This document shows positions 3,533 through 26,821 of a stretch of DNA of 27,575 nt, piece after piece. Position 1 is the stretch's first letter. The number at the start of each line of letters is the position of its first letter. Under the pieces are notes generated by a model. That model was not told where the DNA came from and ran no database searches. It saw only the letters and a program-made list of their open reading frames with translations. The translations under genes and the position numbers were made by a program. This stretch comes from a virus, in the IMG/VR virus record IMGVR_UViG_3300025120_000420, positions 1-27,575 of that record; one strand, 5' to 3'.

Positions 3533-4060
3533 TCATCTCAAAAACTCAGTGATATCTAAATTGTACAACAGTGGATTGATCTTGTGTACTCCTATCAAGA
3601 ATAAACAGAAACTGGCCACACTGGATCCCCTGCCCACACCCCAAACAATATTATTTGCTCTCAACGTGTCAACAAAGTAAATCAAGAACTGTAAAACACG
3701 TATGAATTGTTTCTTCTCAAACAGATCATATTCCATCTGCACTCGGAACTTCTCTTCATCGTTCTGACATTTGTCAAGCAACCACTGTAGGACATTTATT
3801 TGGTAATAACTCTCAGGCATGTGCCATTCGTCACAGTTCTGTTTGTCGAACTTCGCGGGTGTTGGCCTCTCTGGTAATGTATTGATCACAGGTAGATCTA
3901 TGCCCAACTCCCTGAGGCTTTTGGAATATTTGTCTATGTCGTCGAAGTAAAGTTTTGATATGTCAAAGTCCGGGTCTGTGTAAAGTAATTGAATGGCCTC
4001 CTCTTCCGAGAAGATTACATCACCGTGGTCATTTATCTTTTTTTTTATGTTTTCCGCCAT
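3533..4060 (-). CDS. DNA polymerase III alpha-like palm fragment protein
   Basis: A 175-aa protein. The N-terminal ~130 residues are acidic and helical. The C-terminal 40 residues contain NNIVWGVGRGSSVASFCL (about 136-153) then HKINPLLYNLDITEFLR. This resembles the family C polymerase (DnaE) palm segment 'VGPGRGS.AGSLV.Y.L.IT..DPL...L.FERFLN'. In DnaE the catalytic PDFDID motif follows directly, but here the protein stops at the equivalent of FERFL, so it cannot be a polymerase by itself. It may be a relic, a regulator or a partner protein. Its start overlaps the upstream gene by 32 bases in another frame, so the two are probably co-translated. The ORF itself is secure; the relationship is my own motif comparison. 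Confidence 0.7.
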   Translation of the reverse strand: MAENIKKKINDHGDVIFSEEEAIQLLYTDPDFDISKLYFDDIDKYSKSLRELGIDLPVINTLPERPTPAKFDKQNCDEWHMPESYYQINVLQWLLDKCQNDEEKFRVQMEYDLFEKKQFIRVLQFLIYFVDTLRANNIVWGVGRGSSVASFCLFLIGVHKINPLLYNLDITEFLR

Positions 4061-16246: not shown

Positions 16247-16735
16247 TTAGCCTGTGCTTACTCTAAGATCGTTACCGCTTCGGAACAACTGACCTGCAAC
16301 ATTTGGGTTACTTGTAGGTAGATTGGCCATTAGGATCTTAATAGGTATCATTTCAACTGCGCCTGTACCTGTTGCATCAAGTTGCAGGTTGTCATTGGAT
16401 CTGTTTGCTGTGATAACATTATCGGATATCGTTATGGCATCCAAAACAATATTACCTGTTCCGTTTGCGGTTAGTGTGATGTCTGAATTGGTCGTAATTG
16501 GTGAAATTGTAGTGTTATTGATCTGTAGTTGATCTACTTCAATTATACCTGTTCCATTCGCTTGGAGTTTTAGGTCACCATTTGTCACAGTAGTTGTAAT
16601 AGTTCCAGTTGATCCATCACCTACCAATTGGTATACTTCTTCAAAATTACTGTTGATCTTGGCCATTGCTGTTCGCAATGAATCACCTGTGGCCGGATTT
16701 CCCAGTACTCCTGTGTCGATGTTAAGTTTAGTCAT
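16247..16735 (-). CDS. short fibre-like structural protein with shared N-terminal module (162 aa)
   Basis: Starts at the ATG at 16735 with MTKLNIDTGVLGNPATGDSL, then RTAMAKINSNFEEVYQLV: the same N-terminal module as the three big neighbouring fibre-like genes. The body has three or four short 'NGDLKLQANGTGIIEVDQL', 'NSDITLTANGTGNIVLDAI' and 'NDNLQLDATGTGAVEMIPI' units, about 40 residues apart. The end PNVAGQLFRSGNDLRVSTG is a short cap. The frame stays open 33 codons further upstream, but those codons would cover the start region of the opposite-strand gene and do not resemble the family. It looks like a minimal version of the paralogues with the repeat shaft left out. An AATAAATA box is 13 bases upstream. 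Confidence 0.8.
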   Translation of the reverse strand: MTKLNIDTGVLGNPATGDSLRTAMAKINSNFEEVYQLVGDGSTGTITTTVTNGDLKLQANGTGIIEVDQLQINNTTISPITTNSDITLTANGTGNIVLDAITISDNVITANRSNDNLQLDATGTGAVEMIPIKILMANLPTSNPNVAGQLFRSGNDLRVSTG

Positions 16736-16748
16736 AATCTTGTAATCG

Positions 16749-16766: not shown

Positions 16767-17045
16767 ATGTTCATTGAAACCCTAAAAACCATGAAGTTGT
16801 ACAAGAGGGAGAGCAAACTAGGCACCATGCACAACTACCACAGGAAAAACCTGATCTACGTGTTCAAATGCGATGCCTGTACGGAGACATTCATGAGGCC
16901 AAAAAGCAAGGTAGATCCAGAACGTGCATCTAATGACTACAAGCACGTGTGCAACAACTGTGATTCAAAGAAGTTCGCCCAGTCAGTGGGTGTCAAGATG
17001 CGTAAGGTGTATCAGTTGGACGCTAGCAGTACCAAGACCCTATAA
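16767..17045 (+). CDS. small zinc-ribbon-like protein
   Basis: A 92-aa protein on the plus strand. Two CxxC pairs, CDAC (about 35-38) and CNNC (about 62-65), are about 23 residues apart and could hold one zinc ion. The region between is Lys/Arg-rich (FMRPKSKVDPERASNDYKHV). Starts at 16767 or the second ATG at 16791 (MKLYKRESKLGTMHNYHRKN) are both possible; the latter may be nearer the conserved part. No strong Shine-Dalgarno sequence is seen. It is the only plus-strand gene among minus-strand blocks and converges on the GNGESR gene, with stop codons overlapping by 6 bases. DNA, RNA or transcription-factor binding is plausible but unproven. Confidence 0.75.
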   Translation: MFIETLKTMKLYKRESKLGTMHNYHRKNLIYVFKCDACTETFMRPKSKVDPERASNDYKHVCNNCDSKKFAQSVGVKMRKVYQLDASSTKTL

Positions 17046-17783
17046 CTGTTTCCATCGGATGTCGTCACGTGATCCCGTGATCCATCTCTGCAGATCGGCG
17101 TAGATACCACATTTGATGTTGGGTTGATCGAAGTACCAACGCAGGAACGGATTGCCCTCGAGATACTCCTTCCTGTTGATGAAATGGAAGTTGGTGTTGG
17201 GAAATTTCCTAAATGTCTGCCGGAGTTGGTACATCCATTCATATTTGAGATATGCCTTCATACTGGCCCTGTCCGGATAGTTTATGCTGTCCTTGTAGAT
17301 GTTGTTGTGCAGTCTGCTCGGGGTCTCCATCTCCCACTGTTGGGCACCCATGATGTCGAAAGCCATTATGACGACGTTTTTTATGCCAGACTCAGCGGCC
17401 ATCACAACTGCACTGCAACCGGAACCTCTTGCCTTGGAGAAGTCATTGGTCTTGATCTTGCCGCCTTTCTTGACGTCACCTCCACGCCACACTCTATAAA
17501 TTTTCAGACCGTCTGGTATGTCATGTTCGTGATCGCCTTCACAGATGTAGTCCCATTTGCTTACGTCCTGTGGACCGTGTATTGTCGGAGATTCCTTGCC
17601 GCTGTTGTGCCACTTGGTCAGTTCCTCGTACATGGGAGGGTTCACCGCCACTATGTGGTCGCACAGCATGGGATGGTCTCGGTATATGGCGTTACATCCA
17701 TATATTGTGCCATGTCCTTTTAATTTGTCTATTGGGAATATGTTTCTTGATTCACCGTTGCCTATTATGAAAGCAGTGTCCAT
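17040..17783 (-). CDS. GNGESR-motif Rossmann-like protein (copy 1)
   Basis: A 247-aa protein starting at the ATG at 17783, which shares its A with the stop of the Fe-S carrier gene (TAATG); ten further in-frame codons upstream are unlikely to be used. MDTAFIIGNGESRNIFPIDK gives a beta strand and glycine loop, then IYGCNAIYRDH (about 28-38), ARGSGCSAVVMAAESGIKNV (second nucleotide-fold half) and NNIYKDS. The paralogue at 23343-23984 shares IGNGESR, GCNA..RDH and NNIYK. The glycine loop is reminiscent of DUF115/Maf-type glycosyltransferase-like proteins (G.GPS), but I cannot confirm that. The enzyme neighbours (radical SAM, SDR, glycosyltransferase) fit a sugar or small-molecule role. Confidence 0.7.
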   Translation of the reverse strand: MDTAFIIGNGESRNIFPIDKLKGHGTIYGCNAIYRDHPMLCDHIVAVNPPMYEELTKWHNSGKESPTIHGPQDVSKWDYICEGDHEHDIPDGLKIYRVWRGGDVKKGGKIKTNDFSKARGSGCSAVVMAAESGIKNVVIMAFDIMGAQQWEMETPSRLHNNIYKDSINYPDRASMKAYLKYEWMYQLRQTFRKFPNTNFHFINRKEYLEGNPFLRWYFDQPNIKCGIYADLQRWITGSRDDIRWKQL

Positions 17784-18118
17784 TACACTCCAAACGATTC
17801 TCCACAACCACAACCGCTCGAAGCGTTAGGATTAGATACCTCAAATTGAGAACCAAACACTTCTTCTTTCCAGTCTATCTTTGTGCCTGCAACATACAGC
17901 ATACTTGCGTCATCCACGACAAATTTGCCTGTGTGCCAGTCTTCTGTGTGATCGTCAGCACCCACATCTTCCTTGTTGTCTATGAATCCCCACTTGTACT
18001 TGAATCCTGCACAGCCTCCACCTTCAACCATGAGGCTGACAGCGTACTTGTCTGACTGTTTTGCCAACAACTTTTCCATTTGATTTTTTGCTTCTTCTGT
18101 GATTTCAAACCATTTCAT
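17783..18118 (-). CDS. A-type iron-sulfur carrier (IscA/ErpA/HesB-like)
   Basis: A 111-aa protein with the three conserved cysteines of A-type carriers: GGGCAGFKY (C36) and SGCGCGES (C103, C105). Length and layout match IscA, SufA and ErpA. These proteins hold or deliver [2Fe-2S]/[4Fe-4S] clusters to target enzymes. In this window two radical SAM proteins need a [4Fe-4S] cluster, so local supply is an attractive explanation. HesB-like genes are known in marine T4-like phages. The start at 18118 has a GAGAG Shine-Dalgarno-like sequence; the stop overlaps the GNGESR gene start. Confidence 0.92.
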   Translation of the reverse strand: MKWFEITEEAKNQMEKLLAKQSDKYAVSLMVEGGGCAGFKYKWGFIDNKEDVGADDHTEDWHTGKFVVDDASMLYVAGTKIDWKEEVFGSQFEVSNPNASSGCGCGESFGV

Positions 18119-18126
18119 ACTATTAA

Positions 18127-18444
18127 TTATCTCTCATTTCTGCCGCTGTTTTGTATTCCCACCGACATCCAGAATCTCGTTGCATCTCTCTTCTTTTCAA
18201 AACTCATGTATGCGTTCTGGTCCTCCCAGTTATGACGTATAGGATCATACAAGTCTGTTTGTTCGAACCACCATCCCCACTTGCCTTGGCAGTTTGTCTG
18301 GCACCATGATATGCATTCACCCATGATACCGTTAGAGTTCATGTCTATGTTGTGTTCGAACTGTTTCTCATATCCGCAATCCTCAGGAATCTCATCCATT
18401 GCTGAATTGTTTCTCTTAACTTTAACTTTTCCGTAACTTCTCAT
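18127..18444 (-). CDS. conserved-looking small protein, unknown function
   Basis: A 105-aa protein. Basic N-terminus MRSYGKVKVKRNN, then CGYEKQFEHNIDMN, a Cys/Trp-rich centre (GECISWCQTNCQGKWGWWFE) and a C-terminus AYMSFEKKRDATRFWMSVG that looks like a small alpha/beta fold packing on Trp and Phe residues. Four cysteines could bind metal, but spacing (C..C...C) is not a textbook motif. The start overlaps the stop of the radical SAM gene (TAATG), so it is co-translated with it. It could be a partner of that enzyme; no family was recognised. Confidence 0.7.
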   Translation of the reverse strand: MRSYGKVKVKRNNSAMDEIPEDCGYEKQFEHNIDMNSNGIMGECISWCQTNCQGKWGWWFEQTDLYDPIRHNWEDQNAYMSFEKKRDATRFWMSVGIQNSGRNER

Positions 18445-19541
18445 TAATTTGTATAGTATCCTATTCCGTATTTTTTATCAACCACATTTTTATTACATTT
18501 TTGTGAACACTCCACGAAAGTGTTGTTGTTAAAACTATCGAAGAGTGTTTCCCAGATATCATCATTTAGGATCTCTTCTATAGACCTATTACTTTTTGCG
18601 TTTACAAGATGTTTATTTTTAACAAAAAAACTGTCCTCCCACTGTATTACCTTACCATTGTGTTCTAAACTTTTATAAGGGAAACTGGTCCAACTACAAG
18701 GAAATATTGTTCCTTCAGCATTCATGTACAATCCTCTATTTCCTATCAAGCACATGGGCACAATGTCGCCTGTAAATTTTTTTTTTATTTCGTTAAACTT
18801 CTTGTAATTTGTTTTCATATAATTTAATCTGACGGGTTTCCTACTAGATAGATTTACAACCTGCCTTTCATATCGGTGAGTTTTGCTAATAAATTTATTA
18901 CTGGGTTCTAAGGGATCATGATCCCCACCATACGCATCGCCATACTTAGATCCAAATTTCGTGCTATGGGTGAGCTGTAATTGATCACACCCTTGATCTT
19001 TGGCCAACTGTTTGATCAAGTCTAACTTGTCTTCGTTGAATTTAAATATTATTGTGGCCCAATTTACAAACATTTCGCTTTGTTGAGCACAAATCCTCAT
19101 TCCGGTCATGATGCTTTGCCAATGACTGTTGATCCTATAAATGTCATTTGACTGCTGATCATACCCATCAACACTGAAATTGATTGTGTCGCGTTTGTTC
19201 GACACAGCGGCAAATTCTTTCCACCATTTTTCAGTTTTGTAACTGCCATTTGTTATGGTGAATATCTGTATCTCAGGATTGTAGGATTTAATGTACCTGA
19301 TTATATCTATATAATCTTTAGCATATATCGGATCGCCAACATCACCGCACATTGTAAATCGCTGAGTGTGTTGTAATATTTTATGCGAGAACACCCTCTT
19401 GAATTCCTCAAGCGAAATCTCTTTCTGCATCCAACTGATATCTGGATGTTCTTGCCTCGGACATCTTGGACATTTTAGGCTACACTTTGAACTTGGTTCG
19501 ACGTGCCAATGATACAGTTGCCATCCGTACCTATTCAACAT
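18444..19541 (-). CDS. radical SAM protein with SPASM/twitch-like C-terminus (copy 1)
   Basis: A 365-aa protein. The radical SAM cluster motif CxxxCxxC is at C20, C24 and C27 (SSKCSLKCPRCPR), followed by MCGDVGDP and ITNGSY in core-barrel positions and NFSVDGYD (about 121-128). The C-terminal third has MCLIGNRGLYMNAEGTIFPC (C264, C282) and later ECSQKC, the pattern of SPASM/twitch auxiliary Fe-S domains. Such enzymes modify peptides, sugars or cofactors; substrate is unknown. The ATG at 19541 is preceded by GGAG and overlaps the SDR gene end by 11 bases. The sequence is AT-rich and Lys/Asn-rich like the SDR gene, so the pair may have been acquired together. Confidence 0.88.
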   Translation of the reverse strand: MLNRYGWQLYHWHVEPSSKCSLKCPRCPRQEHPDISWMQKEISLEEFKRVFSHKILQHTQRFTMCGDVGDPIYAKDYIDIIRYIKSYNPEIQIFTITNGSYKTEKWWKEFAAVSNKRDTINFSVDGYDQQSNDIYRINSHWQSIMTGMRICAQQSEMFVNWATIIFKFNEDKLDLIKQLAKDQGCDQLQLTHSTKFGSKYGDAYGGDHDPLEPSNKFISKTHRYERQVVNLSSRKPVRLNYMKTNYKKFNEIKKKFTGDIVPMCLIGNRGLYMNAEGTIFPCSWTSFPYKSLEHNGKVIQWEDSFFVKNKHLVNAKSNRSIEEILNDDIWETLFDSFNNNTFVECSQKCNKNVVDKKYGIGYYTN

Positions 19542-20040
19542 AAAAATAAATCTCCGGTACGTAAACTTTATGTTCTAAAATAAACTTCATCATTTCGGCG
19601 ACGTCTTGCGTAGACAACTTGTTACAGTTACGTGATGCTACTAGTTTCGTATCTGTAACTCCCGGGTTGACCAGATATGATTTACATGCCGTTGTTTTCA
19701 AATTTACAATTTTACAGTGACTTTCACGTAATTCTTTTTTGTACTCGACATAAGCACTGTATCCGGAACTTGAAGGTTTGTAGGTCGCGACAGAACTCCC
19801 AATCGAAATAATTTTTTTACTTTCATTTTTCCATTTCTCAAAGAAATACTCTAGGAGTTTGGTCTGGCAATCTGCCTCCCATGCATTGTTGATGAACACA
19901 TCACACGCCTTTAACTTTTCATACACAACAGATGCATCATTGATATCACCGTCGACTCTGTTAAAAACTACAAATTCGTAAGGCAGTTGTGATATGGCAT
20001 GACCTATACCGGATGTTGTTCCTGTGATACCTATTATCAT
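19531..20040 (-). CDS. short-chain dehydrogenase/reductase (SDR family)
   Basis: A 169-aa protein starting at the ATG at 20040, because the Rossmann strand MIIGITGTTSGIG begins immediately; seven in-frame codons upstream are not needed. Motifs: TGTTSGIG (6-13, TGxxxGxG), NNAW (51-54, like NNAG), a Ser after strand 5 (ISIGSS), YxxxK at Y97/K101, and NPGVTDTKL (125-133). It is shorter than usual SDRs (about 250 aa) because spacing between motifs is compressed, yet the full motif set remains. It would catalyse an NAD(P)-dependent oxidation or reduction, perhaps of a sugar. Start and stop overlap flanking genes: ATGA with the glycosyltransferase and 11 bases with the radical SAM gene. Confidence 0.85.
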   Translation of the reverse strand: MIIGITGTTSGIGHAISQLPYEFVVFNRVDGDINDASVVYEKLKACDVFINNAWEADCQTKLLEYFFEKWKNESKKIISIGSSVATYKPSSSGYSAYVEYKKELRESHCKIVNLKTTACKSYLVNPGVTDTKLVASRNCNKLSTQDVAEMMKFILEHKVYVPEIYFYVE

Positions 20041-20738
20041 TTCCAGTTGTCCTCCACCCATTTATCTGCACATTCCATGGGATTTGGTGAGCCATGGAAC
20101 ACCGCAACCCTGTTATCTGGTTGCACCTTTACCGGTGTTTTGAAATATTTCTTGCCTTCTTTTGTTAACAACTTTGTGTCTTTGAAGCCGATCATCTCCC
20201 ACTTGTATGATCTTATCCAATCGTCTGGGAACCAGGTAATGTCTTTGTCGGCCCTCTTGGTTATCCAGTCCTGATCTCCGTGGTTCTGTTGCATTATCTG
20301 TGTTGACCGTTGCTGGAATTCCGTCCATAGATAATCCATAGTGCCTGCCTGCCAACGCATGACACTTGAGTTACTCATTTTCCAATCTTTTATCCTGCAC
20401 CTGTTGAAATCTCTTATTATGTTGAACTTGCCAGGATTGGTGAACAGAGCGTCGATGTTGTCAAATATCACAACATCCAGGTCAAAATACAGTATGTTGC
20501 CCTGCAAGGGTATCTCTGGTGCGAACATGAAAAGTTTGCTCCACCATGTTTTGATCCATGGATCATTGGGTAGTTTTATCACGTTGATGTCTGGATCCAG
20601 TCCTGAGGGATCATCAGTCAAACAATGAAACTGATAAGGTACGGTAGTGTGTCGCTTGACCATGCTGTTGAGCACGTTGGCGTACTTGGAAGGGTACTTC
20701 ACACCCCACTTAACGCACACCACATGATTTGTATCCAC
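20037..20738 (-). CDS. glycosyltransferase-like protein (GT8-like DxD)
   Basis: A 233-aa protein starting at GTG 20738, with AAGGA 7 bases before it. HVVCVKWGVKYPSKYANVLN is the first strand and helix, FHCLTDD a second strand, and ILYFDLDVVIFDNIDALF (82-99) contains the DxD metal- and nucleotide-sugar-binding motif (D86, D88). Later HGDQDWI and a late VAVFHGSPNPMECAD match the C-terminal His/Asp patterns of retaining glycosyltransferases. It would transfer a sugar to an unknown acceptor: DNA base, virion protein or surface glycan. It overlaps the upstream 388-aa gene by 29 bases and the SDR gene by 4. Confidence 0.78.
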   Translation of the reverse strand: MDTNHVVCVKWGVKYPSKYANVLNSMVKRHTTVPYQFHCLTDDPSGLDPDINVIKLPNDPWIKTWWSKLFMFAPEIPLQGNILYFDLDVVIFDNIDALFTNPGKFNIIRDFNRCRIKDWKMSNSSVMRWQAGTMDYLWTEFQQRSTQIMQQNHGDQDWITKRADKDITWFPDDWIRSYKWEMIGFKDTKLLTKEGKKYFKTPVKVQPDNRVAVFHGSPNPMECADKWVEDNWK

Positions 20739-21876
20739 TGTCTAATCCTTCCATCTGTATTTGTTTCCAATCATTACTCTCGAGTGTGTAAGGAAAATTG
20801 TTTGCAGTATTTTCATCACCCGATATCTGTATTCTATTGATATTTAAATTATTTTTCATGCTCTCATAGATACCTTGGAATTTGGTGTCTTGGAAAGAAG
20901 TTTCTAGATTGACTTGTCCCAGTTTGATGTGTCCCAGTGATAACCTTGGCTCCTCCCAGTCGTAGTTGTTTTCCGCAAGCCACTGCCTGTATTCGTCCAT
21001 TTCCTTTTTCTTGAACCAGTGCGTCATTTCTGTAATGGTGTTGCCCCATTCTATGTCAAATTCTCCCGAGTAAAACTTTTGATGATTTATTTCAGAACAC
21101 AACGCTTCTGTCATTACAGGTGCATGTTCGTCCCTAAACACTTCAAACAAAGTTTTGCCCACCTGTGACCAGTGTAAGTAGACACCACCCAACTCCCTGT
21201 CATATCTGTTCTGCTTAAACAGTTCGAAATCACCTTCGTGTAGATCATGCCTGGGTGCGTTCAGGAATGTTGTGATCTGTGAAGGTCTGATCCAATCGGG
21301 GTCGACCACACTTTTCCTGTATGATAATACCCAGCTCTCAACCTCATGACATATATTATTCAGTTGTCTGATGGCATATTTTGTTTTTGTATCGGCCTGT
21401 TTGTAGTATTTGGAAATTGACCAAGCAGTGCCTTGCAGTTCCTCAAAATATCTGTGTAACAAATTACAGGCCTCGTGTTTAAGTCTAAGGCCAGGTTTAT
21501 CCATCTCATTGCCGTCTGGGCAAAGTCCTGTTTTTAAATTTGCTGAATATTGGAAATCATCTGGGACGAATGGATCTAACCTTTCGTAGGGTGGATCAAA
21601 ATCGAACGAATTTATCTGATTGATGTTTTTGTTAAGTTCTCTACACAAGAAAACTAGGTCTCTTTTTGAACTTGCCCAACCGAGAAAGCAGAAATTTTTC
21701 TCCAGTATTCTCTTCTGTGCGAGATTGTCCCTTAATGCTTCTATGAACCTCTTGCCCAGAGGCGTGTCATATACATCGATCGTGACTTCTTTGCCGTCGT
21801 AATCTATGATGATTTTATCTTTTAGAGTAGATGGCACTGTTGGCTCCGTGTTCTGCACATTCCACTTCCACAACAT
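20710..21876 (-). CDS. conserved-looking protein of unknown function (about 375-388 aa)
   Basis: No domain recognised. The protein begins with an Ig-like or beta-rich stretch (IIIDYDGKEVTIDVYDTPLG), then a helical Lys/Arg/Glu-rich centre with FCFLGWASSKRDLVFLCREL, YSANLKTGLCPDG, HRYFEELQG, a WVLSYRKSVVDPDW strand, and GGVYLHWSQVGKTLFEVF with FYSGEFDIEWG. Start is uncertain: the ATG at 21876 (388 aa) lacks a Shine-Dalgarno sequence; the GTG at 21837 (375 aa) has GGAG six bases before it and overlaps the PTPS gene by only 23 bases. A longer frame to 21951 is less likely. It sits between PTPS-like and glycosyltransferase genes, so may act in the same pathway. Confidence 0.65.
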   Translation of the reverse strand: MLWKWNVQNTEPTVPSTLKDKIIIDYDGKEVTIDVYDTPLGKRFIEALRDNLAQKRILEKNFCFLGWASSKRDLVFLCRELNKNINQINSFDFDPPYERLDPFVPDDFQYSANLKTGLCPDGNEMDKPGLRLKHEACNLLHRYFEELQGTAWSISKYYKQADTKTKYAIRQLNNICHEVESWVLSYRKSVVDPDWIRPSQITTFLNAPRHDLHEGDFELFKQNRYDRELGGVYLHWSQVGKTLFEVFRDEHAPVMTEALCSEINHQKFYSGEFDIEWGNTITEMTHWFKKKEMDEYRQWLAENNYDWEEPRLSLGHIKLGQVNLETSFQDTKFQGIYESMKNNLNINRIQISGDENTANNFPYTLESNDWKQIQMEGLDSGYKSCGVR

Positions 21877-22264
21877 AACATCTATTGTCAGTTTTCTCTC
21901 TGATAAGTTTATCTGCGAAGTCAAATGCGTGTTTGGCAAACATCTCAGCACCTACACCATCAAACATCACAATGTCTACAAGATCCAATTCCTCAAGCTC
22001 TCTGAACTTGTCGAGGTGCGGGTCATTCACATCTAATGCGGTCTTATGATCAAAGTGATCTTCTAACCATTTCTTTAATGGTTTCAGTCCACCAAAATCC
22101 ACTGCCCAGTTCTTGTTGTCCAGTTCCTTACAACCGAATGTGAATTTAAATTGTAAACTATATCCGTGTAGCAAATGGCAATGTGAGTGATCTGCGTTGG
22201 GTTGTCTGAACACACAGGCCAATCCTATGTTGTGTCCGTATGTTTTAGTTGAGTAGTAAGTCAT
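21815..22264 (-). CDS. 6-pyruvoyltetrahydropterin synthase / QueD-like protein
   Basis: A 149-aa protein of the PTPS/QueD family. Catalytic-site signatures: CHLLHGYSLQF (29-39, with the Cys and His of C...HGH), WAVDFGGLK (53-61), FDHKTAL (71-77, the catalytic Asp-His pair) and VECAEHGANSA (E138). QueD makes 6-carboxytetrahydropterin for queuosine and 7-deazaguanine; PTPS makes the tetrahydrobiopterin precursor. The usual HGH zinc motif reads HGY here, with nearby H26, H28 and H30 as possible replacement ligands, so activity is uncertain. An AAGGAG Shine-Dalgarno sequence is present. No QueC, QueE or FolE was seen in the window. PTPS/QueD-like genes are known from cyanophages. Confidence 0.85.
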   Translation of the reverse strand: MTYYSTKTYGHNIGLACVFRQPNADHSHCHLLHGYSLQFKFTFGCKELDNKNWAVDFGGLKPLKKWLEDHFDHKTALDVNDPHLDKFRELEELDLVDIVMFDGVGAEMFAKHAFDFADKLIREKTDNRCYVVEVECAEHGANSAIYSKR

Positions 22265-22335
22265 CTTTTCTCCTTGCGTTGATGACTTGCAGAGTGTTTA
22301 TAGAGGGATGAAAGTCTTTTAGTCCTCTCGATCAT
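22261..22335 (-). CDS. possible 24-aa basic mini-ORF between two genes
   Basis: An ATG at 22335 that shares the A of the upstream stop (TGATG) opens a 24-codon frame: MIERTKRLSSLYKHSASHQR then KEKR. Its TGA overlaps the PTPS ATG (ATGA). Both junctions are classic coupling overlaps, and the frame spans the whole 70-base gap. The AAGGAG Shine-Dalgarno sequence of the PTPS gene is inside its last codons. It may simply relay ribosomes or may be a real basic peptide. Short length makes chance possible. Confidence 0.4.
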   Translation of the reverse strand: MIERTKRLSSLYKHSASHQRKEKR

Positions 22336-23329: not shown

Positions 23330-23357
23330 ATTTTATATTATTTTACTTTTTTGTCAA
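23330..23357 (-). promoter_or_regulatory. sigma70-like promoter, apparently leaderless, for the glycosylase gene
   Basis: TTGACA (23352-23357), a 16-base AT-rich spacer and TAAAAT (23330-23335) on the minus strand, with 6 bases (TGTTGT) before the ATG at 23323. No Shine-Dalgarno sequence. The -35 box lies at the end of the upstream GNGESR gene. Confidence 0.6.
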
Positions 23358-23984
23358 CTGTTTATGGATCCATTTGGCCAAACCTTCGTAGGTATCTTGA
23401 AAAACATTTTTATGTTCTTTCCATTCGTCTGGCATTTTCCAACCTTCTTGGTTGACTATGATCCATCTGCACTCTGAGTGTTGGAATAATTTATTAAATT
23501 GGTATATCCAGTATCTTGGATCAACTGGTCTTTTTATGTAAGTGTAGCCCTTTGAACCCTTGTATATATTATTGACATTTTCAGGTTTGTTTTCTTTGCC
23601 TATCCCCCAGAGATCCATCCCCACTAGAAATATTGCTTTGGGTTTGAAACTGATGCCTACTAGAGCGGCAAATTGTCCAGTGCCCCAGTGGAAGGGATCG
23701 TCCTGTCTTTTGTCCCCATCGTAGGGCAGGTCAGGCACTTTCTTTACATTAGGCCAATATGCAAATTGTTGGTACCAATTTTCTCTTGTGAAGATTGTGG
23801 TATTTTTACCACATGTGTTTGCGGCCTCCTGACACATATGCCTGTCGCAGGCAACCACATATTCTAAATTATGATCCCGAAACAATGCATTACAACCAAC
23901 CATCGTTGTCACGTTTTTCAATGGAGTCAGATCGAATCCTCTCCTGCTTTCACCGTTGCCTATTACACTTACAAACTTGGTCAT
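23343..23984 (-). CDS. GNGESR-motif Rossmann-like protein (copy 2)
   Basis: A 213-aa paralogue of the protein at 17040-17783. Shared pieces in the same order: VSVIGNGESRRGFDLTPLK, MVGCNALFRDH, GTGQFAALVG (for GSGCSAVVMAAESG), FLVGMDLWG (for VIMAFDIMG), NNIYKGS and late aromatic strands. It lacks part of the middle insert present in copy 1. No Shine-Dalgarno sequence; the 34-aa ORF upstream ends four bases before its ATG, suggesting coupling. Function is unknown, possibly glycosyltransferase-like or nucleotide-binding. Confidence 0.72.
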   Translation of the reverse strand: MTKFVSVIGNGESRRGFDLTPLKNVTTMVGCNALFRDHNLEYVVACDRHMCQEAANTCGKNTTIFTRENWYQQFAYWPNVKKVPDLPYDGDKRQDDPFHWGTGQFAALVGISFKPKAIFLVGMDLWGIGKENKPENVNNIYKGSKGYTYIKRPVDPRYWIYQFNKLFQHSECRWIIVNQEGWKMPDEWKEHKNVFQDTYEGLAKWIHKQLTKK

Positions 23985-25663: not shown

Positions 25664-26821
25664 CTATACGTCAAGATCAACCCAATTAATAAAACTCTTG
25701 GGCAGGAATTCAAGATTCAATCCACGACGTGATGAGAACTCAGCCAGGTAATCCGCCATGTTGACTCGGTGTGTGTCATCTGGCGTGTCCTTTATCATGT
25801 GCAGTAGCCTTTTGAATTCTGGTAAATCTTTTTTGGACCGAGTGCTATCAATGAAATCCATTTTTGATTGCGTGTCGAGGACGTGTGGCATCATCCAATC
25901 GGCACCCGTGAGATTGTTTAATGTTATCTGATGGCTTCCGTGATATTTGTCATAGAAATCAGCAAACCCTAGAATCGACAGATTGGAGATTGTTGATATG
26001 AATTGTATTTTATGACCGTTTTGTTCTATCATTTTAACCCTGTCCTGGAAATCCCTCCATGTGACTCCGTGTCTAATAAGTTCAAATAACTCTCCTGTTG
26101 CTTCTCCCGATATTTGAAATTTGACGTCCATCCCTTTGGTCTTTTGTAACACCTTTTGCAATCTGTCATTACTAACACCCAATCCTGTTGTTATCGTAAT
26201 TTTTTTTCCATGAATGTGATCTAGCATCTGATCCAATTGGTTGTTAAGCAAAGGTTCTCCTCCTAGAACCAATATACTGCCTAGTTCTGTAGACAATTTA
26301 ATTTCCCTGAGTATCTGAGAAAAGAACCTAGACTCCATGCCACGTGATTTCTGTTTCATCTTGGCCCATAGGTCACTCCACTCATCATTTTGCTTGGCCG
26401 CAACACCACCCAACAAGTAATCACCGTTTTTTGCGATATCTCTTTGCCACGACGAGCTCCATTCTGGCGAACAGTACATGCAGGTGAGGTTACAATCTGT
26501 GCTCAAGGAAATGGCAAGATGTCTTATAGGTGCCTGTGGATCAGTTATTTTATCTTCGTTGATGTAGTCCTGTCTTGCACTGGGCAATCCTTGTTCTTCA
26601 TACTTGTAACAACCATAATGACAGGACGCACAGGACTTGTTTTTTAGCATGAGTTTTCGGTCCTCTAACATGGTTTCCGTGTGGAACAACCTGCCGGGAT
26701 TGGCCTCCAACCAGTCTAGGTCCACCCTTTCGGGATAGGCCTTGCAACAGTTGTACAGCAATCTGCCTTGCACATGTACCTGCATCTCAGTGAATTTAGC
26801 GGAACAGTAGTAATCCTCCAT
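25664..26821 (-). CDS. twitch-type radical SAM protein (copy 2)
   Basis: A 385-aa protein. An N-terminal Cys-rich part (YYCSAKFTEMQVHVQGRLLY, NCC at 24-26, CASCHYGC at 64-71) resembles the auxiliary Fe-S (twitch) segment of such enzymes, followed by the radical SAM motif C110-x3-C114-x2-C117 (STDCNLTCMYCSPEW) and GGEP (187-190) in the barrel. The long C-terminus completes the barrel and ends NLEFLPKSFINWVDLDV. Twitch radical SAM proteins of unknown function are known in marine phages. Substrate is unknown. It is distinct from the radical SAM protein at 18444-19541. No clear Shine-Dalgarno sequence precedes the ATG at 26821. Confidence 0.88.
   Translation of the reverse strand: MEDYYCSAKFTEMQVHVQGRLLYNCCKAYPERVDLDWLEANPGRLFHTETMLEDRKLMLKNKSCASCHYGCYKYEEQGLPSARQDYINEDKITDPQAPIRHLAISLSTDCNLTCMYCSPEWSSSWQRDIAKNGDYLLGGVAAKQNDEWSDLWAKMKQKSRGMESRFFSQILREIKLSTELGSILVLGGEPLLNNQLDQMLDHIHGKKITITTGLGVSNDRLQKVLQKTKGMDVKFQISGEATGELFELIRHGVTWRDFQDRVKMIEQNGHKIQFISTISNLSILGFADFYDKYHGSHQITLNNLTGADWMMPHVLDTQSKMDFIDSTRSKKDLPEFKRLLHMIKDTPDDTHRVNMADYLAEFSSRRGLNLEFLPKSFINWVDLDV

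Follow-up and report, generated by a model that had tools for sequence, protein, structure and literature searches.

Exchange of small enzyme sets at one spot of a conserved gene row beside the tail-fibre genes of a marine T4-like phage

Gene row and protein families

The window, a stretch of 27,575 nucleotides (positions 1 to 27,575 of IMG/VR record IMGVR_UViG_3300025120_000420), contains eight open reading frames between positions 17040 and 22264, all on the minus strand, co-oriented and densely packed. The initial annotation had described an eight-gene enzyme cluster here, and the genes called bear this out; since the proteins are kept in dozens of independent contigs, they do not represent chance ORF content. 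The row starts with a QueD/PTPS-like protein of 149 aa (21815-22264), followed by a phage-only protein (20710-21873; 387 aa from its ATG instead of the 388 aa given before), a glycosyltransferase (GT, 20037-20738), an SDR oxidoreductase (19531-20040), a radical SAM protein (rSAM, 18444-19541), a Cys-containing protein of 105 aa with a CX3CX3C stretch (18127-18444), an A-type Fe-S carrier similar to IscA/SufA/ErpA (17783-18118) and a protein named GNGESR (17040-17777). The first fibre gene after this row, also on the minus strand, codes for a T4 gp9/10-like baseplate-fibre connector (16247-16747; PF07880, phrog_677). Overlaps of 59 nt connect QueD and the 387-aa gene, 29 nt the latter and GT, 4 nt GT and SDR (ATGA, the SDR start lying on the GT stop), 11 nt SDR and rSAM, and 1 nt rSAM and the 105-aa gene (TAATG, the rSAM stop on the next start); gaps of 8 nt and 5 nt separate the Fe-S carrier from the 105-aa gene and from GNGESR, respectively.

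The previously proposed family affiliations were upheld by profile and motif analyses. The first protein matched PF01242 (54.1 bits, cut-off 22.4) and phrog_2389 (QueD-like, E 9e-41), while its score for TIGR03367 was below the cut-off (36.2 versus 89.25 bits), thus it is named QueD-like only. In nine aligned phage proteins C29 and H33 of the C-x3-HGH site are invariant and the second histidine is replaced by tyrosine (LLHGYS). GT belongs to phrog_1962 and has a DxD motif (FDLDVV). SDR was assigned without a Pfam match by its motifs, TGTTSGIG and the residues S82, Y97 and K101 conserved among nine sequences. The radical SAM protein exceeded the cut-off for PF04055 (38.4 versus 29.5 bits); among 19 sequences the cysteines of the CX3CX2C motif (C20, C24, C27) are invariant, as are C264, C282, C345 and C349 in a SPASM-like C-terminus, which scored 17.4 bits against PF13186, the SPASM C-terminal domain, at a cut-off of 21.5. 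No specific match to rSAM was present in NCBIfam, and a PDB search with rSAM and GT gave no homologue of note. The Fe-S carrier scored above the cut-offs of PF01521 (59.5 bits) and TIGR00049 (99 bits) and has the three usual cysteines (C...CXC) in GGGCAGF and SGCGCGE. The 387-aa protein had 72 relatives in IMG/VR and no match in Pfam, PHROG or PDB; its AlphaFold model (pLDDT 79, pTM 0.81) resembled no PDB fold and, in BFVD, nine uncharacterised phage proteins. GNGESR belongs to phrog_30607 (E 2e-14) and has a Rossmann-like model, for which the fold search yielded no significant match. Possibly it is a transferase; the identification as sialyltransferase, indicated by a partial and weak match to phrog_4603, was supported neither by the profile search nor by the fold search.

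A conserved backbone with one exchange slot

Six of the eight genes form a backbone in the order QueD, 387-aa protein, GT, 105-aa protein, Fe-S carrier and GNGESR, leading into the gp9/10-like tail-fibre genes. This order was found almost without exception in 73 relatives and again in 82 contigs of a second set, recruited by the leader RNA only and without use of the cluster enzymes. Together with the start-stop overlaps it persists even where protein identity drops to about 60 %. The variable position is the junction between GT and the 105-aa gene. An insert of more than 450 bp was present here in 28 of 75 loci of the first set, and 21 of 69 loci of the second set were occupied. Most relatives, the nearest one (L077) among them, have an empty slot, and the flanks of L077 are ~90 % identical to those of the window; such statements of absence are weak, because all relatives are fragments. 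Other occupied slots carry another radical SAM gene or a 162-aa gene together with a PLP-like gene. Inserts are rare at the remaining junctions inside the backbone; in two loci (L119 and L203) a radical SAM gene stands in place of the 387-aa gene.

The boundary of the exchange is seen in a pair of contigs (L019 and L020) that agree at 99.93 % identity for 5438 bp as far as the GT stop and part beyond it: one has a cassette of 1.5 kb that is absent from the other. On the core-gene tree, at least 20 changes of the slot state are required. Thus this marine T4-like phage has a conserved gene row beside its tail-fibre genes in which small enzyme sets are exchanged at one spot, and SDR and rSAM are a seamless two-gene cassette placed at the GT stop codon. 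The initial annotation had seen one fixed pathway of eight genes. This was rejected, as the cassette is present or absent between near-identical contigs and missing from most relatives that share the backbone. Independent occurrence of the genes across relatives, the outcome set against a common pathway at that time, was observed for SDR and rSAM, mostly absent and in one genome (G001) at another locus, and not for the six backbone genes.

In G001, SDR and the radical SAM protein rSAM1 (67 % and 86 % identical) have a carbamoyltransferase, an NAD epimerase and a DegT aminotransferase as neighbours. Relatives of rSAM1 are located beside an Ara4N-type aminotransferase and a carbamoyltransferase in the SAR11 phage Mosig, and beside sugar-nucleotide transferase-like genes near the baseplate genes in Campylobacter phage CP220. 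A scan of genome contigs for a bacterial origin of rSAM1 recovered two contigs only, one of them phage-like by gene content.

QueD and its leader RNA

Genes for 7-deazaguanine synthesis are present in the clade away from the operon. G001 encodes FolE, QueE and a transporter of the YhhQ type (Vut_1); it shares a gene at 96 % identity with G017, a genome that has the RNA-QueD locus, and is thereby tied to the clade. A further 16 long contigs from the clade contained no clear FolE or QueE, so the link of these enzymes to the clade rests on G001, G004 and G017. A QueC partner was not found in 16 records. Because the clade carries FolE, QueE and the transporter elsewhere, QueD is most likely better assigned to 7-deazaguanine synthesis than to the chemistry of the slot.

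The leader of queD contains, immediately ahead of the gene, an H-type pseudoknot RNA of 44-45 nt (22284-22328, minus strand) with the stems P1 AGAGG/CCUCU and P2 GACUU/AAGUC. Strong compensatory changes were observed in the stems across 72 distinct phage leaders; this support comes from distant phages only, the element being too invariant to covary in the clade of the window, and its conservation in a set selected by pattern is biased. It is situated almost always ahead of queD, and was missing from four cultured phages whose queD is part of a que operon. When folded by minimum free energy, the leader did not do better than shuffled sequences, as expected for a program that cannot model pseudoknots. 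Rfam gave no match at the gathering threshold and listed no preQ1 family up to E 10. As a control for canonical preQ1-I, viral contigs were searched with the string AGAGGTT...CCCTCTATAAA; the matches, mostly inside coding genes, appeared to be chance, thus a string match alone is weak evidence and a preQ1-I control for the Rfam search was not obtained. The preQ1-I aptamer of B. subtilis (AGAGGUUCUAGCUACACCCUCUAUAAAAAACUAA; PMC8494917, PMC10639078) is likewise an H-type pseudoknot with identical P1 strands, AGAGG and CCUCU, a C immediately 5' of the second P1 strand, AUAAA following, and a position upstream of a queuosine-pathway gene. The phage element differs in its hairpin loop and tail, which are unlike those of the aptamer and longer, in a covarying P2 of 4-5 bp, in a conserved nUCUGC before P2 and in the missing Rfam match. 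The element is a candidate riboswitch of preQ1-I-like type, and on balance we slightly favour a phage riboswitch outside Rfam, either a new class or a preQ1-I-like subtype, that would sense a 7-deazaguanine intermediate and set the expression of queD and the operon.

Function of the locus and related systems

We interpret the locus as glycan-tailoring for the virion or the host surface, with a chemistry interchangeable via the slot, at a probability of roughly 0.5; the swapping of enzyme sets probably varies a sugar-like decoration. The cassette would convert a donor sugar by radical SAM C-H chemistry and a subsequent keto-reduction by SDR, as do known deoxysugar-forming pairs of a radical SAM enzyme and a reductase. 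The backbone GT, perhaps with GNGESR, would transfer the converted sugar to a surface acceptor, either a virion fibre or a host envelope glycan, while the A-type carrier would load Fe-S clusters into the several radical SAM enzymes of the phage. QueD, together with FolE and QueE encoded elsewhere, would make a 7-deazaguanine precursor, most likely outside the sugar chemistry, and the pseudoknot in the leader probably controls queD. AprD4/AprD3 of aminoglycoside biosynthesis are a radical SAM enzyme and its NAD(P)H-dependent reductase partner, with a sugar as substrate, and the cassette is likened to this pair by enzyme type. Of the products initially considered, the modified sugar was retained as best guess, in agreement with the nucleotide-sugar-type enzymes adjoining the rSAM1 relatives. 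Several observations count against this reading of the locus: enzymes for donor activation, which a nucleotide sugar should require, are absent from the operon; GT and GNGESR are retained where the slot is empty, thus they can do without the cassette; the fold search did not confirm GNGESR as a transferase; the 59-nt overlap of QueD with the 387-aa gene argues for some common role; and a radical SAM gene replaces the 387-aa gene in L119 and L203.

A possible, though distinctly less probable, explanation is a loose run of auxiliary genes that each serve a separate process (QueD for 7-deazaguanine, the carrier for Fe-S supply, SDR and rSAM for host metabolism) and lie together because the region beside the fibres is plastic. 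The likely QueD partners encoded elsewhere, the gain and loss of cassettes and inserts at several neighbouring junctions agree with this, but the backbone order and its overlaps are kept among diverged relatives, and the slot accepts a narrow range of genes (rSAM, SDR, PLP-like with the 162-aa partner), no endonucleases or random genes. Improbable is a hypermodification of DNA in which a 7-deazaguanine base is supplied through QueD and then receives additional decoration from GT, rSAM and SDR. QueD as first gene fits the hypermodified base proposed initially, and it alone does so within the row; FolE and QueE in the clade, a TGT/DpdA-like protein with the motif DSGGYQ in G001 and G017, and phage carbamoyltransferases able to modify DNA bases (PMC8670742) point in the same direction. 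Against this, most relatives carry QueD without the cassette, GT relatives occur also in unlike kinds of phages such as P1 (PmgQ) and Mosig, rSAM1 relatives have the neighbours described above, and the DpdA assignment was made by motifs, without support in PDB, Pfam or PHROG and with PF01702 absent from the 16 records searched. Maturation of a peptide, the third product suggested, is very improbable and found no support: the radical SAM protein weakly matches SPASM peptide maturases and its gene overlaps that of the presumed substrate, the 105-aa protein, but this protein is conserved at the same residues in phages with an empty slot, its conserved positions are spread across the entire domain with no division into leader and core, and in the CX3CX3C stretch only two cysteines (C48 and C52) are invariant.

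Marine phages that are nearly the same except for a two-gene cassette, either radical SAM or PLP-like, at a fixed junction are a clean natural experiment, with which an assignment of the decoration chemistry of phage or host surface would become feasible cassette by cassette. Comparable exchange is known from the host recognition cluster of pelagimyophages, where, according to the available text of PMC7029224, two related genomes differ by radical SAM gene cassettes in a plastic region with glycosyltransferases at the tail fibres. In contrast, the locus described here has a conserved backbone with one junction that takes cassettes with codon-exact overlaps, a gene set and slot not described in that text. 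In the Campylobacter phages CP220 and CPt10 (PMC2853527), an exchangeable block close to the baseplate genes carries five radical SAM genes along with sugar-nucleotide transferase-like genes; this is a large en-bloc module without the backbone of the window, and one radical SAM protein is only ~30 % identical. T4-like marine environmental genomes, possibly of the same wider phage group, associate an A-type carrier with up to 12 radical SAM genes, while no slot, cassette or leader RNA is described in the accessible portion of that report (PMC5332604). Cassettes with radical SAM genes are already known from the vicinity of phage tail genes, thus the cluster varies a known theme. The most novel part of the locus is the queD leader RNA: it occurs widely among uncultured phages, covaries strongly and is absent from Rfam, so that a riboswitch for phage 7-deazaguanine metabolism is directly testable.

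A conserved backbone with an exchange slot

The cluster genes of the linear virus record (27,575 bases, IMG/VR) are all located on the minus strand and span 17040-22264. Their 5'-3' order is QueD, an unknown 387-aa protein, glycosyltransferase, SDR, radical SAM protein, 105-aa protein, A-type Fe-S carrier and GNGESR protein; about 290 bases past the latter follow a T4 gp9/10-like protein and repetitive fibre proteins. Family matches and conservation across dozens of contigs supported the reality of the gene cluster. The initial annotation had seen in these eight genes one possible biosynthetic pathway: maps of relatives revealed a fixed backbone order, but a varying content at the junction of glycosyltransferase and 105-aa gene, so the set held as a unit only in its backbone. 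The 387-aa and 105-aa proteins had no match among 50,697 phage records. Between the GNGESR and fibre genes, the opposite strand encodes a 92-aa ORF with two CxxC pairs (16767-17045, plus strand) without a Pfam match.

Relatives were fetched with the radical SAM protein (16 loci) and with the 387-aa protein (72 loci). Across the maps of these loci, which are all fragments from searches covering the best 80 loci, with near-copies counted and some counts made among the matches listed, a single order was present: QueD, 387-aa protein, glycosyltransferase, then 105-aa protein, carrier, GNGESR and gp9/10. The cluster is a backbone of these genes plus a cassette in the slot between glycosyltransferase and 105-aa gene. 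The slot was empty in most loci, where the glycosyltransferase stop overlaps or touches the next start, e.g., in ATGA. Observed contents were SDR with the radical SAM type of the window (rSAM1, 18444-19541), a second SDR type with rSAM1, rSAM-B alone (about 41 % identical), rSAM-c with SDR, and a 162-aa protein with a PLP-like enzyme, a label based on an invariant Asp and an SxxK motif in the absence of a family match. After removal of duplicates, inserts of more than 450 bases were present at this junction in 28 of 75 loci and between 105-aa gene and carrier in 5 of 76, while none occurred at QueD/387-aa, 387-aa/glycosyltransferase or carrier/GNGESR. The same gene order recurred in an independent second sample of 82 contigs found only via the leader RNA described below (48 slots empty, 21 occupied); none of these contained the SDR and rSAM1 pair of the window.

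Cassette exchange is plain from two natural comparisons. The nearest relative, contig L077, has DNA about 90 % identical on both flanks and lacks the SDR and radical SAM pair; in the window, the SDR start lies inside the glycosyltransferase stop (ATGA) and the radical SAM stop inside the start of the next gene (TAATG). Contigs L019 and L020 are 99.93 % identical across 5438 bases as far as the glycosyltransferase stop, beyond which the 162-aa and PLP-like cassette is present in L019, compared with 40 bases in L020. A tree built from four backbone proteins requires at least 20 changes of slot state, and at least 15 for empty versus occupied. The slot label was nevertheless more clustered than with shuffled labels, as expected when close relatives share a cassette.

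Possible cassette chemistry and further genes of the window

The radical SAM protein has CX3CX2C and four further invariant Cys, with nothing above any NCBIfam cut-off; the SDR has its catalytic residues. In contig G001, the same SDR and radical SAM pair is placed amid a carbamoyltransferase, an NAD epimerase and a DegT aminotransferase. In SAR11 phage Mosig, distant relatives of the radical SAM protein neighbour an Ara4N-type aminotransferase and a carbamoyltransferase; in CP220, the neighbours are sugar-nucleotide transferase-like genes. Because of these sugar-type neighbours and the invariant DxD of the adjoining glycosyltransferase (20037-20738), sugar tailoring would be the most economical reading of the cassette function. 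The nearness to fibre genes suggests the virion or host surface as a possible target, in line with what PMC7029224 argues for such regions.

Contigs L119 and L203 have, in place of the 387-aa gene, a radical SAM gene related to the second one of the window (25664-26821, minus strand; twitch-domain family NF033640, above cut-off), and two genes, one VOC-like and one resembling SufE by sequence, precede the carrier; this variant spans queD to the fibre genes. Genes similar to the second radical SAM gene are arrayed in tandem in contigs G001, with six radical SAM matches, and G004, with seven. Also on the minus strand are a second GNGESR-type protein (23343-23984, phrog_30607), whose gene has its own conserved leader ending in late-promoter-like GGGGTGATTAAATA, a 175-aa protein (3533-4060) with a match to part of PF07733, a bacterial DNA polymerase III alpha family, and the UV-damage endonuclease UvdE (134-1174, PF03851).

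QueD and its leader RNA

QueD is probably a story separate from the cassette. In cultured phages, FolE, QueE and often QueC accompany its relatives in queuosine-type operons. G001, of the wider clade of the window, encodes FolE, a transporter of the Vut_1 (YhhQ) type and a protein resembling QueE. This contig shares one protein at 96 % with contig G017, which holds the RNA-QueD locus; by eye, with DSGGYQ and following motifs, this protein looks like TGT/DpdA, an identity confirmed by no library. The QueE-like proteins of contigs L091 (2973-3875) and L095 (5713-6639) have the cysteine stretches CNLQCSGF and CNFRCRKF, in which the third Cys of the usual cluster-binding motif is missing from its expected place.

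The leader RNA AGAGGACTAAAAGACTTTCATCCCTCTATAAACACTCTGCAAGTC (22328 to 22284, minus strand) is located between queD and the gene before it. It was present in 56 of 66 relatives fetched without using the RNA, with a mean pairwise identity of 94.7 % versus 60 % at queD third codon positions; in nine of the ten loci without it, the preceding gene runs straight into queD. Two overlapping helices are possible, P1 (columns 1-5/23-27) and P2 (13-17/41-45), near-invariant within the clade of the window. In distant phages, first seen in G004, they vary yet stay paired. Of 157 phage queD leaders examined, 126 (72 distinct) contained the pseudoknot RNA. The search pattern constrained just the two inner pairs of P1 and short single-stranded anchors, leaving the three outer pairs of P1 and five pairs of P2 free. 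All eight free pairs exceeded each of 2000 shuffles; for example, P1 pair 3 was paired in 72/72 (AU, CG or UA), versus no more than 48 in shuffles, and P2 pair 5 in 66/72 (UA, GC, CG, AU or GU), versus no more than 43. The shuffles overstate significance because the sequences are related, yet most positions show several pair types repeatedly.

When at least 4+4 pairs were required, the pattern had 292 matches on both strands of 2.96 million bases of loci, many of which cover the same contig twice, and zero in the reversed sequence. All but one match precede queD or sit at a contig end with the leader cut, a specificity that applies only within these phages, since most loci had been retrieved through queD or the RNA itself. 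The sole match before a non-queD gene (contig L254, around position 707) precedes a 240-aa unknown, about 0.8 kb upstream of queD.

The RNA had no match in Rfam 15. Covariation, the position before queD and preQ1-I-like anchors make a candidate riboswitch with a putative ligand likely. Both AGAGG and CCCUCUAUAAA, the anchors of the RNA, occur unchanged in the B. subtilis preQ1-I aptamer, and the three preQ1-I subtypes have the pseudoknot fold in common; the leader RNA differs from preQ1-I in its loop lengths and the nUCUGC segment.
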